Source: Streptomyces noursei (GTDB lineage Bacteria > Actinomycetota > Actinomycetes > Streptomycetales > Streptomycetaceae). Taken from it: DNA of 64,000 bases. The notes under the pieces are model-generated. The model was not told the origin of the DNA, made no database searches, and saw only the letters and a program-made list of their open reading frames with translations. Within the stretch, counting starts at the first letter, position 1. Every line of letters starts with the position of its first letter. Both the position numbers and the translations under genes were made by a program. This document shows positions 8,042 to 16,187 of this stretch, in pieces. The stretch is taken from assembly GCF_001646665.1 (NCBI RefSeq), contig NZ_LWBU01000035.1, positions 121,711 to 185,710 on the forward strand. The letters run 5' to 3'.

Positions 8042-8071
8042 TTGTGGCGCTCCTCCGGGCGTGATTAGGAT
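8042..8071 (+). promoter_or_regulatory. predicted housekeeping-type promoter of the RiPP locus
   Basis: TTGTGG at 8042-8047, an 18-bp spacer, and TAGGAT at 8066-8071, close to the vegetative consensus TTGACA-TANNNT. Transcription would start near 8078, giving a leader of about 55 nt before the GTG at 8134. It is the only strong promoter-like element seen ahead of the five collinear genes. Confidence 0.55.
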
Positions 8072-8133
8072 CCCGCTCGTTTCGCTTCCCCCACACTTCC
8101 TGCACGATTTCGCCAAATCGGTGAGGTGCTCCC

Positions 8134-9456
8134 GTGGAACGGTCCGCGTCAACCGCACCACCGTCCCACCCACGGCCGGGAACACGCGACTTCACGCTCC
8201 TGTGGTGGGCCAACGCCGCCGACGCCGTGGGCACCCAGGCCTCGGGAGCCGTCCTCCCCCTGCTCCTCCTCGGACTGGGTCACCCGCCCCAGGTGGTCGG
8301 CCTGGTCGCCGGCGTCTCCACCGCCATCGGGCTCCTCATCGGGCCCTTCGTCGCCGTGCCGGTCGACCGGGGCGCACGCAGGCGGGTGATGCTCGGGTCC
8401 GCCACCGTCTCCGCGCTCGCCATGGGGGGCGTGAGCCTGGCCCTGACCACCGGCCACCCGCCCCTCGGGCTGGTCCTCACCGCCGTCCTGGTCGAACGCT
8501 CGGCGACCGCCTGCTTCGAGGCGGCCGCCCGCGGCACGGTCGCCCTCGTCTGCCCGGCACCGGAACAGCCGCGGGCGATCGCGCGGCTGGCGGCGGCCGA
8601 CCAGGGAGCCCTGATCGTCGGCCCCGCGCTCGGCGGCGTGCTCTACCAGGTGGCCCGTGCGCTCCCGTTCCTCGCCGACGCCCTGTCCTACCTCGTCAGC
8701 GCCCTGTGCGTACGGGCGATGCGGGCGGACCTCGCGGCGCCGGCCGCACCGGCCTCCCCCACCGCGGCGGCACCGGCCGCACCGGCCTCCCCCACCGCGC
8801 CGACCGCGCGGGCCGAACTCCGCGTACGCCTCGGGGAGGTGCTGCGCGAGGGCGCGGCCGGGCTGCGGCTGGTGCGCTCCTCCGCGCCGCTGCGGCTGGT
8901 CCTGGTGTGGAGCGCCACGGTGAACGTCGTCGTGGTGACGCTCTACTTCGGCGCCGTGTTCGCCCTCCAGAGGGGTGGTCACGGCGGCGCCGCCCTCGGT
9001 GCGGTCCTGGCCGTGTCGGGTGCGGCGGGGCTGGCCGGCGCGCTTGCCGCGCCCCGGGTGGCGAAACGTTTCGGCGCCTCCCGGACGGTGACGGGTACGA
9101 CCTGGCTCCTGGTGCCGCTCACCGCCGCGCCGGCCGCGCTCGCCCCGGTGGCGGGGGCGTGGGCGTACGGAGCGCTGTTCGGCCTGGTCTGCCTGCTGAT
9201 GCCGATGGCCTCCGTGGTGCTCCAGGCCCGTGCCCTCCAGGTGACCGCACCGGCGTTGCAGGCGCGTACCGGTGCCGTCCTGGCCACCGCCACGACCGGC
9301 GGCGCGTCCCTGGCGCCCGTGCTCGCCGGGGTCCTCGCCGACCGGGTCTCCCCCGCCGCGCCCGCGGTCGCCTGCGGGGTGACGCTCACCCTGCTCGCGG
9401 TGCACACCTCCCGGCGCCCGCTGCGCGACGGGCGAGCCGCGGAGGTGGCCGGATGA
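8134..9456 (+). CDS. MFS transporter, predicted exporter of the RiPP product
   Basis: A 440-residue inner-membrane protein with about 12 hydrophobic segments and the loop-2/3 motif PVDRGARRRVMLGSA of major facilitator proteins; it resembles EntS-type (MFS_3) drug or siderophore exporters. The central cytoplasmic loop contains a duplicated Ala/Pro stretch (APAAPASPTA occurs twice in tandem, about 8740-8805). GTG 8134 is chosen because GGTGAGG lies 9-14 nt upstream and the protein then reads naturally. The stop overlaps the ATG of the peptidase gene (ATGA), so the two are coupled. Its position at the head of a precursor-peptide operon suggests export of the mature peptide, or self-resistance; that role is inferred. 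Confidence 0.88.
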   Translation: MERSASTAPPSHPRPGTRDFTLLWWANAADAVGTQASGAVLPLLLLGLGHPPQVVGLVAGVSTAIGLLIGPFVAVPVDRGARRRVMLGSATVSALAMGGVSLALTTGHPPLGLVLTAVLVERSATACFEAAARGTVALVCPAPEQPRAIARLAAADQGALIVGPALGGVLYQVARALPFLADALSYLVSALCVRAMRADLAAPAAPASPTAAAPAAPASPTAPTARAELRVRLGEVLREGAAGLRLVRSSAPLRLVLVWSATVNVVVVTLYFGAVFALQRGGHGGAALGAVLAVSGAAGLAGALAAPRVAKRFGASRTVTGTTWLLVPLTAAPAALAPVAGAWAYGALFGLVCLLMPMASVVLQARALQVTAPALQARTGAVLATATTGGASLAPVLAGVLADRVSPAAPAVACGVTLTLLAVHTSRRPLRDGRAAEVAG

Positions 9457-11339
9457 CCGGCGGCTACCAGGTGTACCGGGCGGCCCTGCCCGAGGTGTGC
9501 GCCGCCGACCCGGCCCGGATGGTCTTCACGGCCGATGCCGACGGCCGATGCGAGGTGTTCACCTGGGACGCCGTCTCCCGCCGCGCCCGGCAGGTCACCC
9601 GGCGGCCGCGCGGCACCCTGCACGGCGCCATCGACCGCGACGCGTACGTGTGGTGGTTCGACGAGGACGAACACGGGCACGGACAGTGGCGTTTCCAGCC
9701 CTTCGGCGGCGGTACGGACCTGCCCGGGCTGACCGGCGTCCCCGCCGGGCTCCCCCGCGGCCTCGCGGTGAGCGACCACGGCACGGTCGCCCTGGCCGTC
9801 GGCGACGGCGGCGCCACCACCGTCCACGTGGGTCCGCGCGGCGGCGCCGCCCGCACGGTCGTCCGCACCGGCGGCCACGCCACGCTCACCGGCATCACGC
9901 CCGGCGGAGGGCTGCTCGCCCTCGGCGGCGCCGACGGGGTCACCGTACTCACCTCCGAGGGCACCGTGCGCGCCGTCCTGCCCGGCGGCGAACGCTCCGG
10001 GCGCCTCTGGCCGCTGGGGTTCGCCCCGGCCGGGCCGGACGACGAACTGCTCCTCGTCCGTGAGCGCCACGACCGGTACGTCGTCGAGAGCTGGCGGCCC
10101 GGCACCGGGACCGTCACCCACGACTGGTGCGCCTTCGACACCGAGATCACCGCCCGCTGGGACGCCGACGGCCGTTCCGTACTGGTCCGGCAGGACCGCC
10201 ACGGCCGTTCGGCCCTGCACCGGGCCCGCCTCGACGACCGGACCCTCACCCCGGTCCCCACCCCGGCGGGCACCCTGCTGGACGCCGCCACCCGGCGCGG
10301 CGGCGACCTGCACTACCTGTGGACGGACACCGGACATCCGCCGAGGCTGCGCTCCTCGCGCGGGACGCCGCTCCCCCCGCTTCCCACCGTCGCCGGGCCC
10401 GTCCCCGGCACGCACCACGACCTGTGGACCCCCGGCCCCGACGGCCCGGTGCACACCCTGCTCAGCCTGCCCGTGCCCCCCACGGCGCCCGCCGCACCGC
10501 CCGGCTCCCCCACCGGCGCCGAGCCGCCCGCCGCCCCCGCGGTGTTCCTCGTCCACGGGGGGCCCGCCGACCACGACCGCGACGCCTACGACGGGGTCGT
10601 CCACTCCCTGGTCGCCTCCGGTTTCGCGGTCGCGCGCGTCAACTACCGCGGCTCCACCGGGTACGGGCCCCGCTGGCGGCGCGCGCAGGGGCGGGGCGTC
10701 GGCCTCGCCCAGGTCGACGACCTCGCCTCGGTACGGGCCGACCTGATCGCCCGCCGGCTGATCCGCCCCGGCGCCGTGGGGCTGTGGGGCACCTCCTGGG
10801 GCGGCTACCTGGTCCTGCTCGCCCTGGGCACCCGCCCGGACCTGTGGCAGGCGGGGGTGGCCGTCAAGCCGGTCGCCGACTGCGCCGCCGCCCACCGCAC
10901 GACGACCCCCGCCCTGCGCGCCCTGGACGAACGGCTCTTCGGCGGCACGCCCGACGAGGTGCCCGAGCGGTACGCGCGCAGCTCGCCGATCCGGTACGCG
11001 GCGGCGGTCCGCGCCCCGCTGCTGGTGGCCGCCGCGACCCGGGACGCCAAATGCCCGCCCGGCCAGGTCCGCGGCTACCTCGCCGCGCTGCGCGCCGCCG
11101 GGGTCCGCCACGAGGCGATGTGGCTCGACTCCGGTCACGACGGCTACGACGGCGGCGACCACGTCGCCGTACTGCGCCGTGCCGTGGTCTTCCTCGACCG
11201 GGAACTGCGCGGCCCGGCACGCCGCCCACAGACGCCCCGCTCCGCCCGGAGCGGGGAGCACCGCACCGCAGAACGACTCACGGAGAGGAGAAGGTCCCAT
11301 GCAGAAGGACATCATCCACAACGACCCGCTCGCGGGTGA
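9453..11339 (+). CDS. S9 prolyl-oligopeptidase-type peptidase, candidate RiPP leader peptidase
   Basis: A 628-residue cytoplasmic serine peptidase: N-terminal beta-propeller-like half (repeats of short blades such as DADGRCEVFTWDAVSRR and GITPGGGLLALGGADGVTVL) and a C-terminal alpha/beta-hydrolase half (VFLVHGGPADHDRDAY, NYRGSTGYGPRWRRA). Triad Ser448 in GTSWGGY, Asp531 in RDAKCP, His562 in SGHDGY. Starts at ATG 9453, overlapping the transporter stop. S9 enzymes cut short peptides, often after Pro, and family members process or cyclise other RiPPs, so trimming the adjacent 39-mer is the likely job (inference). The last 14 codons overlap the start of the precursor gene in another frame, and the final 40 or so residues after LDRELRG look non-conserved. 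Confidence 0.88.
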   Translation: MTGGYQVYRAALPEVCAADPARMVFTADADGRCEVFTWDAVSRRARQVTRRPRGTLHGAIDRDAYVWWFDEDEHGHGQWRFQPFGGGTDLPGLTGVPAGLPRGLAVSDHGTVALAVGDGGATTVHVGPRGGAARTVVRTGGHATLTGITPGGGLLALGGADGVTVLTSEGTVRAVLPGGERSGRLWPLGFAPAGPDDELLLVRERHDRYVVESWRPGTGTVTHDWCAFDTEITARWDADGRSVLVRQDRHGRSALHRARLDDRTLTPVPTPAGTLLDAATRRGGDLHYLWTDTGHPPRLRSSRGTPLPPLPTVAGPVPGTHHDLWTPGPDGPVHTLLSLPVPPTAPAAPPGSPTGAEPPAAPAVFLVHGGPADHDRDAYDGVVHSLVASGFAVARVNYRGSTGYGPRWRRAQGRGVGLAQVDDLASVRADLIARRLIRPGAVGLWGTSWGGYLVLLALGTRPDLWQAGVAVKPVADCAAAHRTTTPALRALDERLFGGTPDEVPERYARSSPIRYAAAVRAPLLVAAATRDAKCPPGQVRGYLAALRAAGVRHEAMWLDSGHDGYDGGDHVAVLRRAVVFLDRELRGPARRPQTPRSARSGEHRTAERLTERRRSHAEGHHPQRPARG

Positions 11340-11418
11340 CGAGGAGAACCGCAAGCCGAGCGTCGGCATCACCGTCACCGTCCCGTTCCGCAACGCCGAG
11401 GACGCGGAAGAGGACTGA
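11299..11418 (+). CDS. 39-residue RiPP precursor peptide (predicted)
   Basis: A short gene with its own strong ribosome site (GGAGAGGAGAAGG just before ATG 11299), lying between a peptidase gene and a radical SAM gene. The peptide begins MQKDIIHNDPLAGDEENRK (polar, acidic, leader-like), continues PSVGITVTVPFRN and ends with the acidic tail AEDAEED. The middle is Val/Thr-rich (V22, V26, V28, I24, T25, T27) with no Cys, so lanthionine or thiazole chemistry is excluded. Val and Thr are plausible targets for C-methylation by the next gene. Pro residues at 20 and 29 bracket a 9-mer that a Pro-cutting peptidase could release. Coding, not accidental: in-frame, well spaced, between operon partners; too short for routine gene callers. 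The modification site and mature form are inferred. Confidence 0.78.
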   Translation: MQKDIIHNDPLAGDEENRKPSVGITVTVPFRNAEDAEED

Positions 11419-11424
11419 CCCCCG

Positions 11425-11460
11425 CCGGCCGGCCCGGCGGTGCACCGCCGGGCCGGCCGG
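11425..11460 (+). terminator. perfect 36-nt palindrome between precursor and radical SAM gene
   Basis: Two exact 16-nt arms (left arm CCGGCCGGCCCGGCGG) around the centre TGCA, starting 7 nt after the precursor stop. As RNA it forms a very stable hairpin with no following T-tract. It probably acts as a partial terminator or 3' stabiliser so that more precursor than enzyme is made, a common arrangement for RiPP operons (inference). Confidence 0.7.
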
Positions 11461-11482
11461 TCCCCATTCCCGAGGAGCCGAC

Positions 11483-13399
11483 ATGCGTGTCCTGCTGGTC
11501 AACATGCCCTGGTCGCCCATCGACCTTCCGTCCCTCGCGCTGGGAATACTCAAACGGAGCGTGGACGAGCGCGTGCCCGGTGCCGAGGCCGAGGTTCTGC
11601 ACGCCAATCTCGAATTCACCGACTGGATCACCGCCCGTACCGAATTCAGCGGCGACGACTACGAGTACTACGCCCTGTCGTCCTATTTCATGGGCTGCGG
11701 CGACTGGGTCTTCTCCTCCGCCCTCTACGACGATCCCCACTGGCGCGAGGAGGAGTTCACCGCGGTGATGCGCGGGAAACTCAAGAAGTCGCGCATGGCC
11801 ATGACCCGCGCGCTGCACCGGGTGGTTCCCGAGTTCGTCGACGAGATCGCCGCCCGGATCGTGGAGTACGCGCCCGACGTCGTCGGGTTCACCTCCACCT
11901 TCCAGCAGAACACCGCGGCGCTCGCGGCCGCCCGCCGGGTCAAGCAGCTCGCCCCGCACATCGTCACCGTCATGGGCGGGGCCAACTGCGACGGCGCCCA
12001 GGGTGCCGCCGTGCACCGCAACTTCCCCTTCGTCGACCACGTCGTCCGCGGGGAGGGCGAGGCCGCGTTCCCGCAGCTGCTCACCGCTCTGGCCGCGGGC
12101 TCCGCCCTCTCGGAGGTGCCGGGGCTGTGCCACCGCGGCCCGGACGGGGAGAGCCGCGCCAATCCCATGGCCACCCGCCCGCTCCCGCCGGCCGCGATCC
12201 TGCCGCCCGACTACAGCGGCTACTTCGAGCGGCTGGCCGCCTCCGTCGCCCGCAACTGGGTCGAGCCCAAGCTGGTGGTCGAGGGCGCCCGCGGCTGCTG
12301 GTGGGGCGAGAAGCACCACTGCACCTTCTGCGGCCTCAACGGCTCGTTCATGCAGTTCCGTTCCAAGAGCCCGGACACCTTCTACGACGAGATCATGGAA
12401 CTGGCCCGCCGCCACCGGGTCCTGGACATGTACGTCGTCGACAACATCCTCGACATGGGGTACCTGACAACCGTCCTGCCCAGGATCATCGAGAGCGAGT
12501 ACGACCTGCGGCTGCACATCGAGATCAAGGCCAACATGCGCCGCCCGCAGCTCCGGACGCTCGCCGAGGCGGGCATGATCTACGTTCAGCCCGGCATCGA
12601 GTCGCTGAACCACCGGGTGCTGGACCTGATGGACAAGGGCGTCAGCGGCTGCCAGAACGTCCGGATGCTCCGGGACGGCGCGGAGACGGGCCTGTCCGTC
12701 GCCTGGAACTACCTCCACGGCTTCCCCGGCGAGACCGCGCGGGACTACGAACCGGTGATCGGCCAGATCCCGGCGCTGGAACACCTCGACCCGCCGGTCG
12801 ACCTGTCCGCGCGGATCGCGATCGAGCGCTTCAGCCCCTACTTCGAGCGTCCCGAACTCGGTTTCACCGGCCTGCGCCCGGAGGAGCACTACCGCTTCAC
12901 CTACGACCTGCCGGAGGAGGAGCTGTACGACCTGGCGTACGTCTTCGAGGCGCCGCCCCGCGGCATCGGCGAGCCCACCGTCACCGCGCTCAACGACGCG
13001 CTCGCCGCCTGGAAGAAGCACCACGCCGACGCCCGGCTCACCCACGCCGACCTGGGCGACCGGATCGTCCTGGTCTCCCGGCGGCGTGCCTTCGACTGGC
13101 GGACGATGGAGCTCACCGACCCGTTCGAGCGGGCCGTCTTCCGGCTCCTCGACCAGCCGCACACCCCCGCCGCCCTCACCAGGAAGGCCGCGCGCAAGGC
13201 GCCCGGCACGGCCGCGCCCGACGAGGCCGGTGTCCAGCGGCTCCTCGACACCTGGCTGGCCCTCGGGCTGGTCTTCACCGACGGCGGGCAGTACGTCCAC
13301 ATCGCCCCCGCCGCCGTCAACGAGGACCTGCTGCGGCTGGACTTCATGCGCCACACGTACGCGTCGGCCGGCACGCCCGCCGAACCCGCCCGCGTATGA
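11483..13399 (+). CDS. B12-binding radical SAM enzyme, RiPP C-methyltransferase (PoyC-like) family
   Basis: A 638-residue cytoplasmic enzyme. Residues 1 to about 210 form a cobalamin-binding Rossmann domain (MRVLLVNMPWSPIDLPSLAL, DVVGFTSTFQQN, VTVMGGANCDG, VVRGEGEAAFP). The radical SAM core follows with the iron-sulfur motif C272-x7-C280-x2-C283 in GCWWGEKHHCTFCGLNGSF, not the ordinary C-x3-C-x2-C; CWWGxKHHCTFCGLN is the hallmark of a RiPP-maturation family (TIGR03975 from memory) that includes PoyC, which methylates Val beta-carbons in polytheonamide. The C-terminal 170 residues form a separate helical/winged domain (FDWRTMELTDPFERAVFRLL, VQRLLDTWLALGLVFTDGG) that may hold the precursor. ATG 11483 follows GAGGAG. 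The substrate is probably the adjacent 39-mer. Confidence 0.92.
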   Translation: MRVLLVNMPWSPIDLPSLALGILKRSVDERVPGAEAEVLHANLEFTDWITARTEFSGDDYEYYALSSYFMGCGDWVFSSALYDDPHWREEEFTAVMRGKLKKSRMAMTRALHRVVPEFVDEIAARIVEYAPDVVGFTSTFQQNTAALAAARRVKQLAPHIVTVMGGANCDGAQGAAVHRNFPFVDHVVRGEGEAAFPQLLTALAAGSALSEVPGLCHRGPDGESRANPMATRPLPPAAILPPDYSGYFERLAASVARNWVEPKLVVEGARGCWWGEKHHCTFCGLNGSFMQFRSKSPDTFYDEIMELARRHRVLDMYVVDNILDMGYLTTVLPRIIESEYDLRLHIEIKANMRRPQLRTLAEAGMIYVQPGIESLNHRVLDLMDKGVSGCQNVRMLRDGAETGLSVAWNYLHGFPGETARDYEPVIGQIPALEHLDPPVDLSARIAIERFSPYFERPELGFTGLRPEEHYRFTYDLPEEELYDLAYVFEAPPRGIGEPTVTALNDALAAWKKHHADARLTHADLGDRIVLVSRRRAFDWRTMELTDPFERAVFRLLDQPHTPAALTRKAARKAPGTAAPDEAGVQRLLDTWLALGLVFTDGGQYVHIAPAAVNEDLLRLDFMRHTYASAGTPAEPARV

Positions 13400-13430
13400 C
13401 CCGACCGCGATCCGAGGAGGAACACCGCCC

Positions 13431-14093
13431 ATGAGCACCGCCGTCGGTCCGTCCGCCGTCCTGGCCTGGCGGGACTACGACCCCGAAGCCTGCGAGCTGC
13501 CCGGGATGTTCCTCGGCGAACTCGCCCTGCCCGGCCCGCCGGAAGGCGAGAGCGAGCGGCTGTGGCAGCTCGGCGCCCGCCGCGTGCGGCTGCCGGGCAC
13601 CGTCGACCTCTCGGGCACCCCGGACGCCGCCCGGGCCGCCATCGCCGTGGACGCACTGGGGCTGGTGCGCGACCTGACCGCCCGGGCCGTGCTGGTCGAG
13701 TGGGACCTGCGCCTCGACCCCGGGGCGGGCGAGCGCTGGCGGGTCCTCAGCCACCTCCAGCCGCCCCGGCGCATCGAGGGGCCGGCCGGGGCCGGCGAGG
13801 CGCTGCGCGAGTGGCGGCGCGGCCACTACCTGTGCAAGTGCCTGTGGCGCAAGGGCCCCGGATTCGTACAGATCCGCGACCGGCGCTGGGGCGAGCTGCG
13901 CCGCTTCACCGCCGACGAGCCGGAGTACGCGCGGGCCATCGAGGCCCTGGCGTACGGGGCGCCGGCGGGCGAGGTGCCGCGGGCCGTCCTGGACGACTTC
14001 CGTGGCGAGGACCTGGTCCTCGACGTCGGCCCGCTCGCCTGGTGGCTGCCGTACCGGATCAGCCGGTGGCTTCAGGAGTCGATGACGATCTGA
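13431..14093 (+). CDS. uncharacterised radical-SAM partner protein (DUF5825-like)
   Basis: A 220-residue soluble protein with no enzyme motif I can name. It begins by stating an alpha/beta layout (LAWRDYDPEACELPGMFLGE, RRVRLPGTVDLSG), and has a conserved-looking C-terminal half: HYLCKCLWRKGPGFVQIRD, RRWGELRRFTADEPEYARAI and VLDVGPLAWWLPYRISRWLQ. From memory such proteins (I believe DUF5825) recur next to this class of B12 radical SAM enzyme in actinobacteria; not checked. ATG 13431 has GAGGAGG 10 nt upstream, 31 bp after the enzyme stop, so it belongs to the same operon. Likely a precursor-binding or enzyme-partner subunit; alternatives are a second maturation enzyme or an immunity protein. 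Confidence 0.8.
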   Translation: MSTAVGPSAVLAWRDYDPEACELPGMFLGELALPGPPEGESERLWQLGARRVRLPGTVDLSGTPDAARAAIAVDALGLVRDLTARAVLVEWDLRLDPGAGERWRVLSHLQPPRRIEGPAGAGEALREWRRGHYLCKCLWRKGPGFVQIRDRRWGELRRFTADEPEYARAIEALAYGAPAGEVPRAVLDDFRGEDLVLDVGPLAWWLPYRISRWLQESMTI

Positions 14094-14383: not shown

Positions 14384-14564
14384 ATGCCGGTGCGCGCCCG
14401 TCCGCCTCCGGAGCCGAAAGGGACCCGGTACCGCGGGGTCCGGGACGGTGGCGGAGAGGGCGGGCCATCTGCCAGTCGCGTGAGACGGGCAGCCGGTGCG
14501 AGTAGACGACCGGCGACCGGGAAGGCGGACAATTCACGCCAGACGGACAGGTGGGAGGTCGAGC

Positions 14565-15002
14565 ATGGTCTCGGGACCGCTCAAGGACGACTGGAACGGA
14601 ATTCAGGGAGAGGTCGCCGAAGGCCTGAACGCGCACTTCGACGGTGATCTCGGCAACGTCACGGACGCACGGCTGGCCGCGGGGCTGTTCCTCGACACCG
14701 TCGCGGCCTGCGATCCACCGGCGGAGGCCGACAGCAGGGACGACATCCTGCTGGTGGTGACGGAACTGGCGGCCAACGCCATCCAGTACGCCCCCGGCCC
14801 GTTCACGCTGCGGGCGCGCCGCACCTTCGACGGGGTGCACGTGATGGTGCGGGACACCAATCCGGCACCGCCGAAACCGGTGCCCTCCAGGAGGGCCGGG
14901 AAGCCCGGAGGGCTGGGGTGGCACATCGTCCAGGCCCTCGGCACGGTCAACGTGCTGACCCAGCCCGACGGCAAGGAGGTGCACGTGTTCCTGCCCTGGT
15001 GA
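14565..15002 (+). CDS. HATPase-type anti-sigma factor-like kinase
   Basis: A 145-residue cytoplasmic protein with the GHKL ATPase fold of RsbW/SpoIIAB: N-box DDILLVVTELAANAIQYA, G1-type box VMVRDTNPAPPKPVPS and a late G-box KPGGLGWHIVQALG. These proteins bind a sigma factor or phosphorylate an STAS antagonist. ATG 14565 (MVSGPLKDDW) has GGAGG nine nt upstream; the longer in-frame start lacks one. Convergent with the PP2C-like gene 19 bp downstream, a frequent partner gene. Target not shown by sequence; may act as sensor of the SigB-type network here. Confidence 0.85.
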   Translation: MVSGPLKDDWNGIQGEVAEGLNAHFDGDLGNVTDARLAAGLFLDTVAACDPPAEADSRDDILLVVTELAANAIQYAPGPFTLRARRTFDGVHVMVRDTNPAPPKPVPSRRAGKPGGLGWHIVQALGTVNVLTQPDGKEVHVFLPW

Positions 15003-15020: not shown

Positions 15021-16187
15021 CTACTGGCGGCCGCGCCAGTCGAGGCAGACGACCAGGGCGTCGTCGTCCACGTCCGCGTCCCCGCGGTGTCCGGCGAGCT
15101 CCCGCAGCACCGCGTGCGGGACCTGGGAGGGCGGCAGGAGCCGGGTCGCGGTCATCGCCCGGCTGAGCGCCTTCTCGCCGTAGGGCTCACCGGCCGGGGA
15201 CGCCACGTCGTACACACCGTCGCTGAGGAAGAACAGGCGGTCACCGGGCTCCACCCGGAAGCGCTGGGCCGTGTACAGGGTGTCCTCGAACATGCCGAGC
15301 GGGAGCTGGGCCTCGAAGCCGACGGGTTCCGCCCGGCCGTGCCTCAGGCGCCACATCCTCGGCGACCCGGCGTCCACCACCTCGACCTCCCCGGTCGCGA
15401 GGGCGAACCGCAGCAGGAGGACGGAGAGGTGCGACACCCCGTGGTAGTGGCCGTGGACGGCCTGATCGGCGAGGCACGCCTGGTCGGCGAGCGACAGGCC
15501 GGCCCGGCGGGCGTTGCGCAGCGCGTTGATCGCCAGGCTGGTCAGCAGGGCGGCCTCGACGCCCTCCCCCATGCCGTTGGTGACGGTCAGCGTGAGGTGG
15601 TCGGCGGAGGACGACCAGTCGTAGTTGTCGCCGTGGATCGCGTAGGCCGGTTCGAGCTGTGCGCCGATCTCGTATTCGGGGCGCGAGGTGGAGAAGCCGG
15701 GCAGCAGCTGCCACTGCATCTCGGCGGCCAGGGTCAGCCTGCCGGTCCTGCGGGCCTGGAGGTACAGGTCGGTCTCACGCTCGGCGACGACGATCTCCCG
15801 GCCGAGGAGCTGGGCGACGGCCTGCAGCTCCTCACGGACCCGCCGGGTGGAGCGGTCGCCGGGCAGGCGCACGGAGAGGACGCCAATGCGGTCGCCCCGG
15901 ACGCTGACGGGGAAGTGGGCGGTGACGTCGGTGCCCGGGGTGTGCTTCTCGACGTGCGGCTGCTGGGACCCGAAAGCCCGTCCGGGGGCGCTGCCGTGCA
16001 CCGGGACGGGCTCGGTGGTGTACGGGAGGGCGCTGACGGGCTGGAGCGTGGTCATCGCGTAGTCGGCCATGAGCAGGTCGGCGGAGACGGCCGTGTAGTG
16101 GCCGGCGAGCACGTCCCGCACCGCTTCGAGGAGGGCGTGGGGCGGGGCGTCGCGCACTGCGCGCTCCACGGCCAGGAATCTGTCCAT
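15021..16187 (-). CDS. PP2C/SpoIIE-type phosphatase-like protein with GAF-like domain
   Basis: A 388-residue cytoplasmic protein: N-terminal GAF-like sensor (about 15-165, PVHGSAPGRAFGSQQPHV...FPVSVRGDRIGVLSV), a coiled linker, and a SpoIIE/PP2C domain (about 185-385). This class dephosphorylates STAS antagonists to free sigma factors. Motif 1, normally GGDWYD, reads IHGDNYDW; motif 2, normally VGDVxGHG, reads VTNGMGEG and lacks the metal-binding Asp; later motifs FLSDGVYDV and DVDDDALVV are intact. So it may be a weak or pseudo-phosphatase. ATG 16187, GGTGGTGAG ribosome site. Divergent from a MarR gene 137 bp away, with which it likely shares control. Confidence 0.85.
   Translation of the reverse strand: MDRFLAVERAVRDAPPHALLEAVRDVLAGHYTAVSADLLMADYAMTTLQPVSALPYTTEPVPVHGSAPGRAFGSQQPHVEKHTPGTDVTAHFPVSVRGDRIGVLSVRLPGDRSTRRVREELQAVAQLLGREIVVAERETDLYLQARRTGRLTLAAEMQWQLLPGFSTSRPEYEIGAQLEPAYAIHGDNYDWSSSADHLTLTVTNGMGEGVEAALLTSLAINALRNARRAGLSLADQACLADQAVHGHYHGVSHLSVLLLRFALATGEVEVVDAGSPRMWRLRHGRAEPVGFEAQLPLGMFEDTLYTAQRFRVEPGDRLFFLSDGVYDVASPAGEPYGEKALSRAMTATRLLPPSQVPHAVLRELAGHRGDADVDDDALVVCLDWRGRQ

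Follow-up and report, generated by a model that had tools for sequence, protein, structure and literature searches.

Positions 8,042 to 14,093 of a 64,000-nucleotide stretch of Streptomyces noursei DNA (NCBI RefSeq assembly GCF_001646665.1, contig NZ_LWBU01000035.1, positions 121,711 to 185,710; the whole stretch is referred to as the window) contained five genes: those for a major facilitator superfamily (MFS) transporter, an S9-family serine peptidase, a 39-residue precursor peptide, a cobalamin (B12)-binding radical S-adenosylmethionine enzyme (B12-rSAM) and a DUF5825 protein. This set, which has the make-up and order of a set in S. clavuligerus and is likely to be one operon, likely yields a clavusporin-type peptide through the pathway proposed below; we assign this interpretation a probability of approximately 0.86. 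According to two reports, residues of the clavusporins are C-methylated by a homologous pair of B12-rSAM and DUF5825 proteins (PMC12257519), and their leader is removed by MpcP, a member of the prolyl-oligopeptidase (POP) family (PMC12951456). A clavusporin-type product was defined as one that carries multiple C-methyl groups, lowers surface tension and aids development.

The S. clavuligerus plasmid NZ_CP065235.1 (L113; WP_003958122.1 to WP_003958126.1) carried the five genes in the identical order and on the identical strand. Identities with the window were 69% (MFS), 76% (S9), 91% (B12-rSAM) and 77% (DUF5825), and that of the precursor was 92% (36/39), a value that concerns the S. clavuligerus frame and not the published precursor; S. 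clavuligerus was taken to be the clavusporin producer from the name. The five-gene order of the clavusporin system was likewise assigned through S. clavuligerus. The three differing sites of the precursor were located one each in the leader, the core (predicted as SVGITVTVP in the window and SVGITITVP in S. clavuligerus) and the acidic tail, and both gene sets had an equivalent hairpin 3' of the precursor gene. Because the pair of B12-rSAM and DUF5825, the POP-family S9 leader protease and the gene order of S. clavuligerus all matched, the window locus is likely a new copy of the known clavusporin kind and not an unknown system; the five-gene order was also carried by dozens of other Streptomyces. 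The original prediction, made from the letters of the window, had held that this gene set has no described product. This claim of novelty is replaced by the assignment to the clavusporins, and the modest additions of this study are a covarying hairpin, a possible leader-binding domain in DUF5825 and a map of other candidate precursor types.

Conservation of the precursor gene and its hairpin

Among named genomes, 525 relatives of the B12-rSAM were found, and the best 80 were kept for neighbourhood counts. In the same relative place beside the enzyme, the S9 gene was present in 78 of these 80 loci, the precursor in 77, DUF5825 in 77 and the MFS gene in 74. All misses of S9 (L035 and L068), of the precursor (L035, L068 and L054, the last within a run of N) and of DUF5825 (L070, L108 and L109) fell at contig edges or N runs, as did four of the six misses of MFS (L035, L044, L068 and L079); L048, in which S9 was truncated, and L085 had no MFS gene although 8 kb of upstream sequence was present. 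In 295 genomes of the genus, searched for both proteins (the two sets were taken as identical from matching genome identifiers), DUF5825 was detected in 70 (69 above the cut-off) and the precursor in 40, and all 40 belonged to the 70 (Fisher p = 1.2e-30); in one of them (G139), the two genes were on separate contigs. DUF5825 was also found in 45 of 200 genomes of the family, spanning 7 of 17 genera. These counts, together with the family matches, sustained the original prediction of a locus for a ribosomally synthesized and post-translationally modified peptide (RiPP), in which a dedicated precursor is accompanied by a predicted B12-rSAM C-methyltransferase, an S9 protease and an exporter. Homologous radical SAM genes that never have the peptide or S9 gene nearby had been named as evidence against it; the outcome favoured the prediction, with both genes adjoining the enzyme in nearly all of the best 80 of 525 relatives and with DUF5825 in all 40 genomes of the genus that have the precursor.

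The precursor was thus present in approximately 14% of the sampled genomes of the genus, and its gene is easily overlooked by annotation, since it is absent from the S. clavuligerus record; for both reasons, peptides of the clavusporin type may be widespread among Streptomyces. The unannotated S. clavuligerus gene is located at 6681-6800 of L113, and one number is skipped in the protein accessions between the S9 and B12-rSAM genes.

The precursor frame of the window is preceded by a ribosome-binding site (GGAGAAGG), and the peptide had no Pfam or NCBIfam family match. In total, 78 precursors (59 distinct) were read: 76 from the 80 named loci and those of S. clavuligerus and the window. K3, D4, N8, P10, L11, R18, P29 and R31 were invariant in the 74 precursors of the main type, in which positions 22, 24, 26 and 28 were exclusively Ile or Val, and Thr occupied positions 25 and 27 in 69 and 68, respectively. 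Pro20 was found in 76 of the 78 (72 of the 74 of the main type), and Cys was absent from all 78, in agreement with the Cys-free, Val/Thr-rich core originally proposed. In all seven precursors whose charge was checked, the tail was acidic (net -2 to -5). In four relatives, whose B12-rSAM was 71-73% identical, GVGVV[VI]YLRSAEE stood in place of the main-type sequence. From this pattern, the leader is probably residues 1-20 (MQKDIIHNDPLAGDEENRKP), followed by a predicted core from residue 21 (SVGITVTVP) and an acidic tail (FRNAEDAEED). The computed masses of residues 21-39 and 21-29 are 2047.970 and 871.501 Da, respectively.

The missing family match, the lack of annotation in S. clavuligerus and the retrieval of only nine protein clusters with a 42-residue relative as a query would suit a chance open reading frame, with the real substrate encoded elsewhere. 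Against this stand the 78 homologues in register, the invariance of the first six residues listed above, the ribosome-binding site and the full co-occurrence with DUF5825; this explanation was refuted in practice by conservation, and its probability is negligible.

Directly downstream of the precursor stop, the stretch 11420-11482 had a folding energy of -45.3 kcal/mol (z -4.76). A stem with 12 or more pairs, counting G-U pairs and tolerating one mismatch, that started at most 14 nt past the precursor stop was found in 72 of 78 loci, compared with 0 of 76 sites after the B12-rSAM stop and 6 of 312 sites within the B12-rSAM gene; these counts are independent of the choice of alignment rows. An alignment of 70 rows held 69 distinct hairpins, since that of the window repeats that of L034. 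Over 13 pairs, 98.5% of its 863 cells were paired, a percentage that is favoured because the rows were picked, from the 72 of 78, for having stems of at least 12 bp. Ten pairs showed changes on both sides, with 72 such cells versus 14.2 in shuffles, and covariation was also seen with RNAalifold. The hairpin may function as an attenuator or as a stabiliser of the mRNA 3' end, by which precursor mRNA would be kept in excess.

Enzymes and the proposed pathway

The B12-rSAM of the window scored 617.9 bits against TIGR03975 (rSAM_ocin_1; cut-off of 281.85), with profile positions 1-605 of 606 covered, and contained the B12-binding (PF02310) and radical SAM (PF04055) domains. CWWGEKHHCTFC at residue 272 corresponds to C-x7-C-x2-C, the cluster motif typical of TIGR03975, and the closest solved structure was that of TokK, a sequential B12-rSAM methyltransferase. 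A second, weak TIGR03975-like match was observed in the same genome (G000:C279:421806-422669; 56.6 bits, below the cut-off). The S9 enzyme, the predicted leader protease, had the nucleophile motif GTSWGG at residue 446. Its original description as a prolyl-oligopeptidase holds for the family (PF00326) and not for the nearest structures, since the closest solved relatives were acylaminoacyl peptidases (1ve6, E 3e-27) and prolyl endopeptidase 2bkl gave only 4.5e-9.

PoyB and PoyC, the C-methyltransferases of proteusins, are B12-rSAM enzymes as well and place methyl groups on unactivated carbons in ribosomal peptides; proteusin precursors have long nitrile-hydratase-like leaders. The window shares a predicted peptide C-methyltransferase of this type, but its precursor differs (39 residues, no Pfam match), and the nitrile-hydratase-like leader expected of a proteusin was not found.

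In the proposed pathway, DUF5825 would bind the leader (at the conserved KD[IV]I.NDPL) and offer the core to the B12-rSAM for methylation at unactivated carbons within VGITVTV (residues 22-28), the Val/Ile/Thr stretch. Cleavage by the S9 peptidase, most likely after Pro20, would come next, and an amphiphile with a hydrophobic methylated head and an acidic tail would leave the cell through the MFS protein. By analogy with the clavusporins, the exported peptide may serve as a surfactant while the colony develops. The hairpin probably holds the precursor transcript above those of the enzymes.

Two steps of this scheme may be read differently. Instead of methylation, the enzyme may perform other chemistry, such as ring closure or the formation of a carbon-carbon cross-link: according to PMC12257519, a B12-rSAM encoded in the pbs cluster, in which cobalamin has no evident function, is proposed to join ortho-tyrosines by a cross-link, and TIGR03975 is the name of a subfamily and not a tested enzyme. 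On the other hand, the peptide has a single aromatic residue past the leader and no Cys, and the homologous pair is described in the same paper as C-methylating, which makes such chemistry very improbable. A somewhat less improbable, but still unlikely, alternative concerns the role of the product: a C-methylated peptide made by the same enzymes may serve in signalling or antibiosis and not in surface activity, so that the likeness to the clavusporins would be chemical only. The strong conservation of the main-type core (only Ile or Val at four positions, and Pro29 in 74 of 74) would also suit a signal that is read by one fixed receptor, and an exporter is present; the near-identity of the precursor to that of S. 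clavuligerus and the combination of a hydrophobic head with an acidic tail (net charge of -4), the build expected of a surfactant, argue instead for the clavusporin-type role.

DUF5825 and its other branches

The partner protein, originally described as having no known function, was found where predicted and belongs to a named family (DUF5825, PF19142), which is still titled a domain of unknown function; a predicted leader-binding domain gives it a concrete candidate role. Residues 135-201 were modelled as a domain like the RiPP recognition element (RRE), and the predicted fold, compared with solved RREs for their three-stranded sheet and helices, may resemble those of the lasso peptide B1 protein TbiB1 (5v1u) and the radical SAM enzyme CteB (5why). 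In contrast to these RRE systems, no sequence similarity of DUF5825 to the PqqD/RRE profile was detected: the hhalign score (9.64) was inside the range of 20 column-shuffled controls (7.4-13.3), and none of 73 DUF5825 members had a PqqD match up to E 5. An RRE domain in DUF5825 is possible on the basis of the modelled fold.

Outside the clavusporin branch, 21 distant DUF5825 loci (20 and one plasmid) were examined. In all of them, a B12-rSAM of the window's type (38-74% identical) adjoined DUF5825, and the MFS-S9-precursor arrangement was found only in L140. Candidate precursors, chosen by length and a ribosome-binding site, were of several types. Those of L114, L124, L125 and L136 (two candidates each in L125 and L114) had the form MEK[TV]VV..[DN]PQ with short beta-branched C-termini, and no S9 gene was located within their precursor-rSAM-DUF5825 units. 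L127, L128 and L129 had candidates of the form MEIKK[VI]VVRE...RRPAILEKRPTR, with a variant in L131, and the C-termini in these four loci were without a Val/Thr-rich core. L139 encoded two near-identical candidates (MKKRTIQLEKRTDHS[ST]GADRGRWLVHGGNE), and L138 encoded MKKDVIKGDKL...GVTVRIP. By the same two features, no candidate was found in L121, L122, L123, L130, L132, L133, L134 and L137, and those in L126 and L135 were implausible.

A second, distant B12-rSAM-like gene (24-28% identity to the window enzyme) was observed within approximately 5 kb of the pair of DUF5825 and B12-rSAM in L122, L123, L126, L133 and L135, and part of one (38% over a short piece) at the edge of L134.

The further candidate precursors that accompany DUF5825 suggest C-methylated peptides that are as yet unexplored. 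A broader proposal, for and against which we see about equal odds, is that DUF5825 is the dedicated RRE partner for leader docking in a whole radiation of B12-rSAM peptide methyltransferases, of which the clavusporins are merely the first. Most branches would then retain a leader motif such as [QE]K.[VI][VI]..[DN]P but exchange their cores and their protease and exporter genes, and the covarying hairpin of the clavusporin branch would set the ratio of precursor to enzyme.

Gene layout, promoter-like block and neighbouring genes

The features are listed in Table 1. The original description of five coupled or closely spaced genes was accurate, and their coordinates were confirmed: MFS and S9 overlap by 4 nt and S9 and the precursor gene by 41 nt, with gaps of 64 nt between the precursor and B12-rSAM genes and 31 nt between the B12-rSAM and DUF5825 genes. 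One transcript may cover the whole set.

Table 1. Positions of the gene set and associated elements in the window
Feature	Position	Strand	Remarks
Promoter-like block TTGTGG - 18 nt - TAGGAT	8042..8071	+	Upstream of MFS; aligned across loci
MFS transporter, predicted peptide exporter	8134..9456	+	440 aa, GTG start; PF07690 71.8 bits
S9-family serine peptidase, predicted leader protease	9453..11339	+	628 aa; PF00326 121.5 bits
Precursor peptide, 39 aa	11299..11418	+	MQKDIIHNDPLAGDEENRKPSVGITVTVPFRNAEDAEED; translation, conservation in register
GC-rich hairpin, 17 bp	11424..11461	+	Directly 3' of precursor stop; no U run
B12-rSAM, predicted to C-methylate the peptide	11483..13399	+	638 aa; TIGR03975, PF02310, PF04055
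DUF5825 partner protein	13431..14093	+	220 aa; PF19142 255.4 bits, cut-off 25

The promoter-like elements were TTGTGG (8042-8047) and TAGGAT (8066-8071). In 18 hand-chosen loci, a block CTTGT[GA] ... TA[ACG]G[AC]T was aligned upstream of MFS in 16, the window counted; L042 was without it, and L049 had a shifted form. A scan with the strict consensus gave no promoter-like sites, and the block of the window falls below it.

The flanking genes of the window lie outside the five-gene unit: the upstream beta-lactamase-like gene was at the equivalent position in none of the 80 best loci, and the PP2C, ATPase and MarR neighbours were in one (L052). The gene set is followed by an ATPase-like gene (14496-15002, + strand) and a PP2C-like phosphatase gene (15021-16187, - strand), both identified by reading the sequence, without a family search. 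Among the 80 loci, the window had these two genes at that position in common only with L052 of S. lavendofoliae (86 and 89%).
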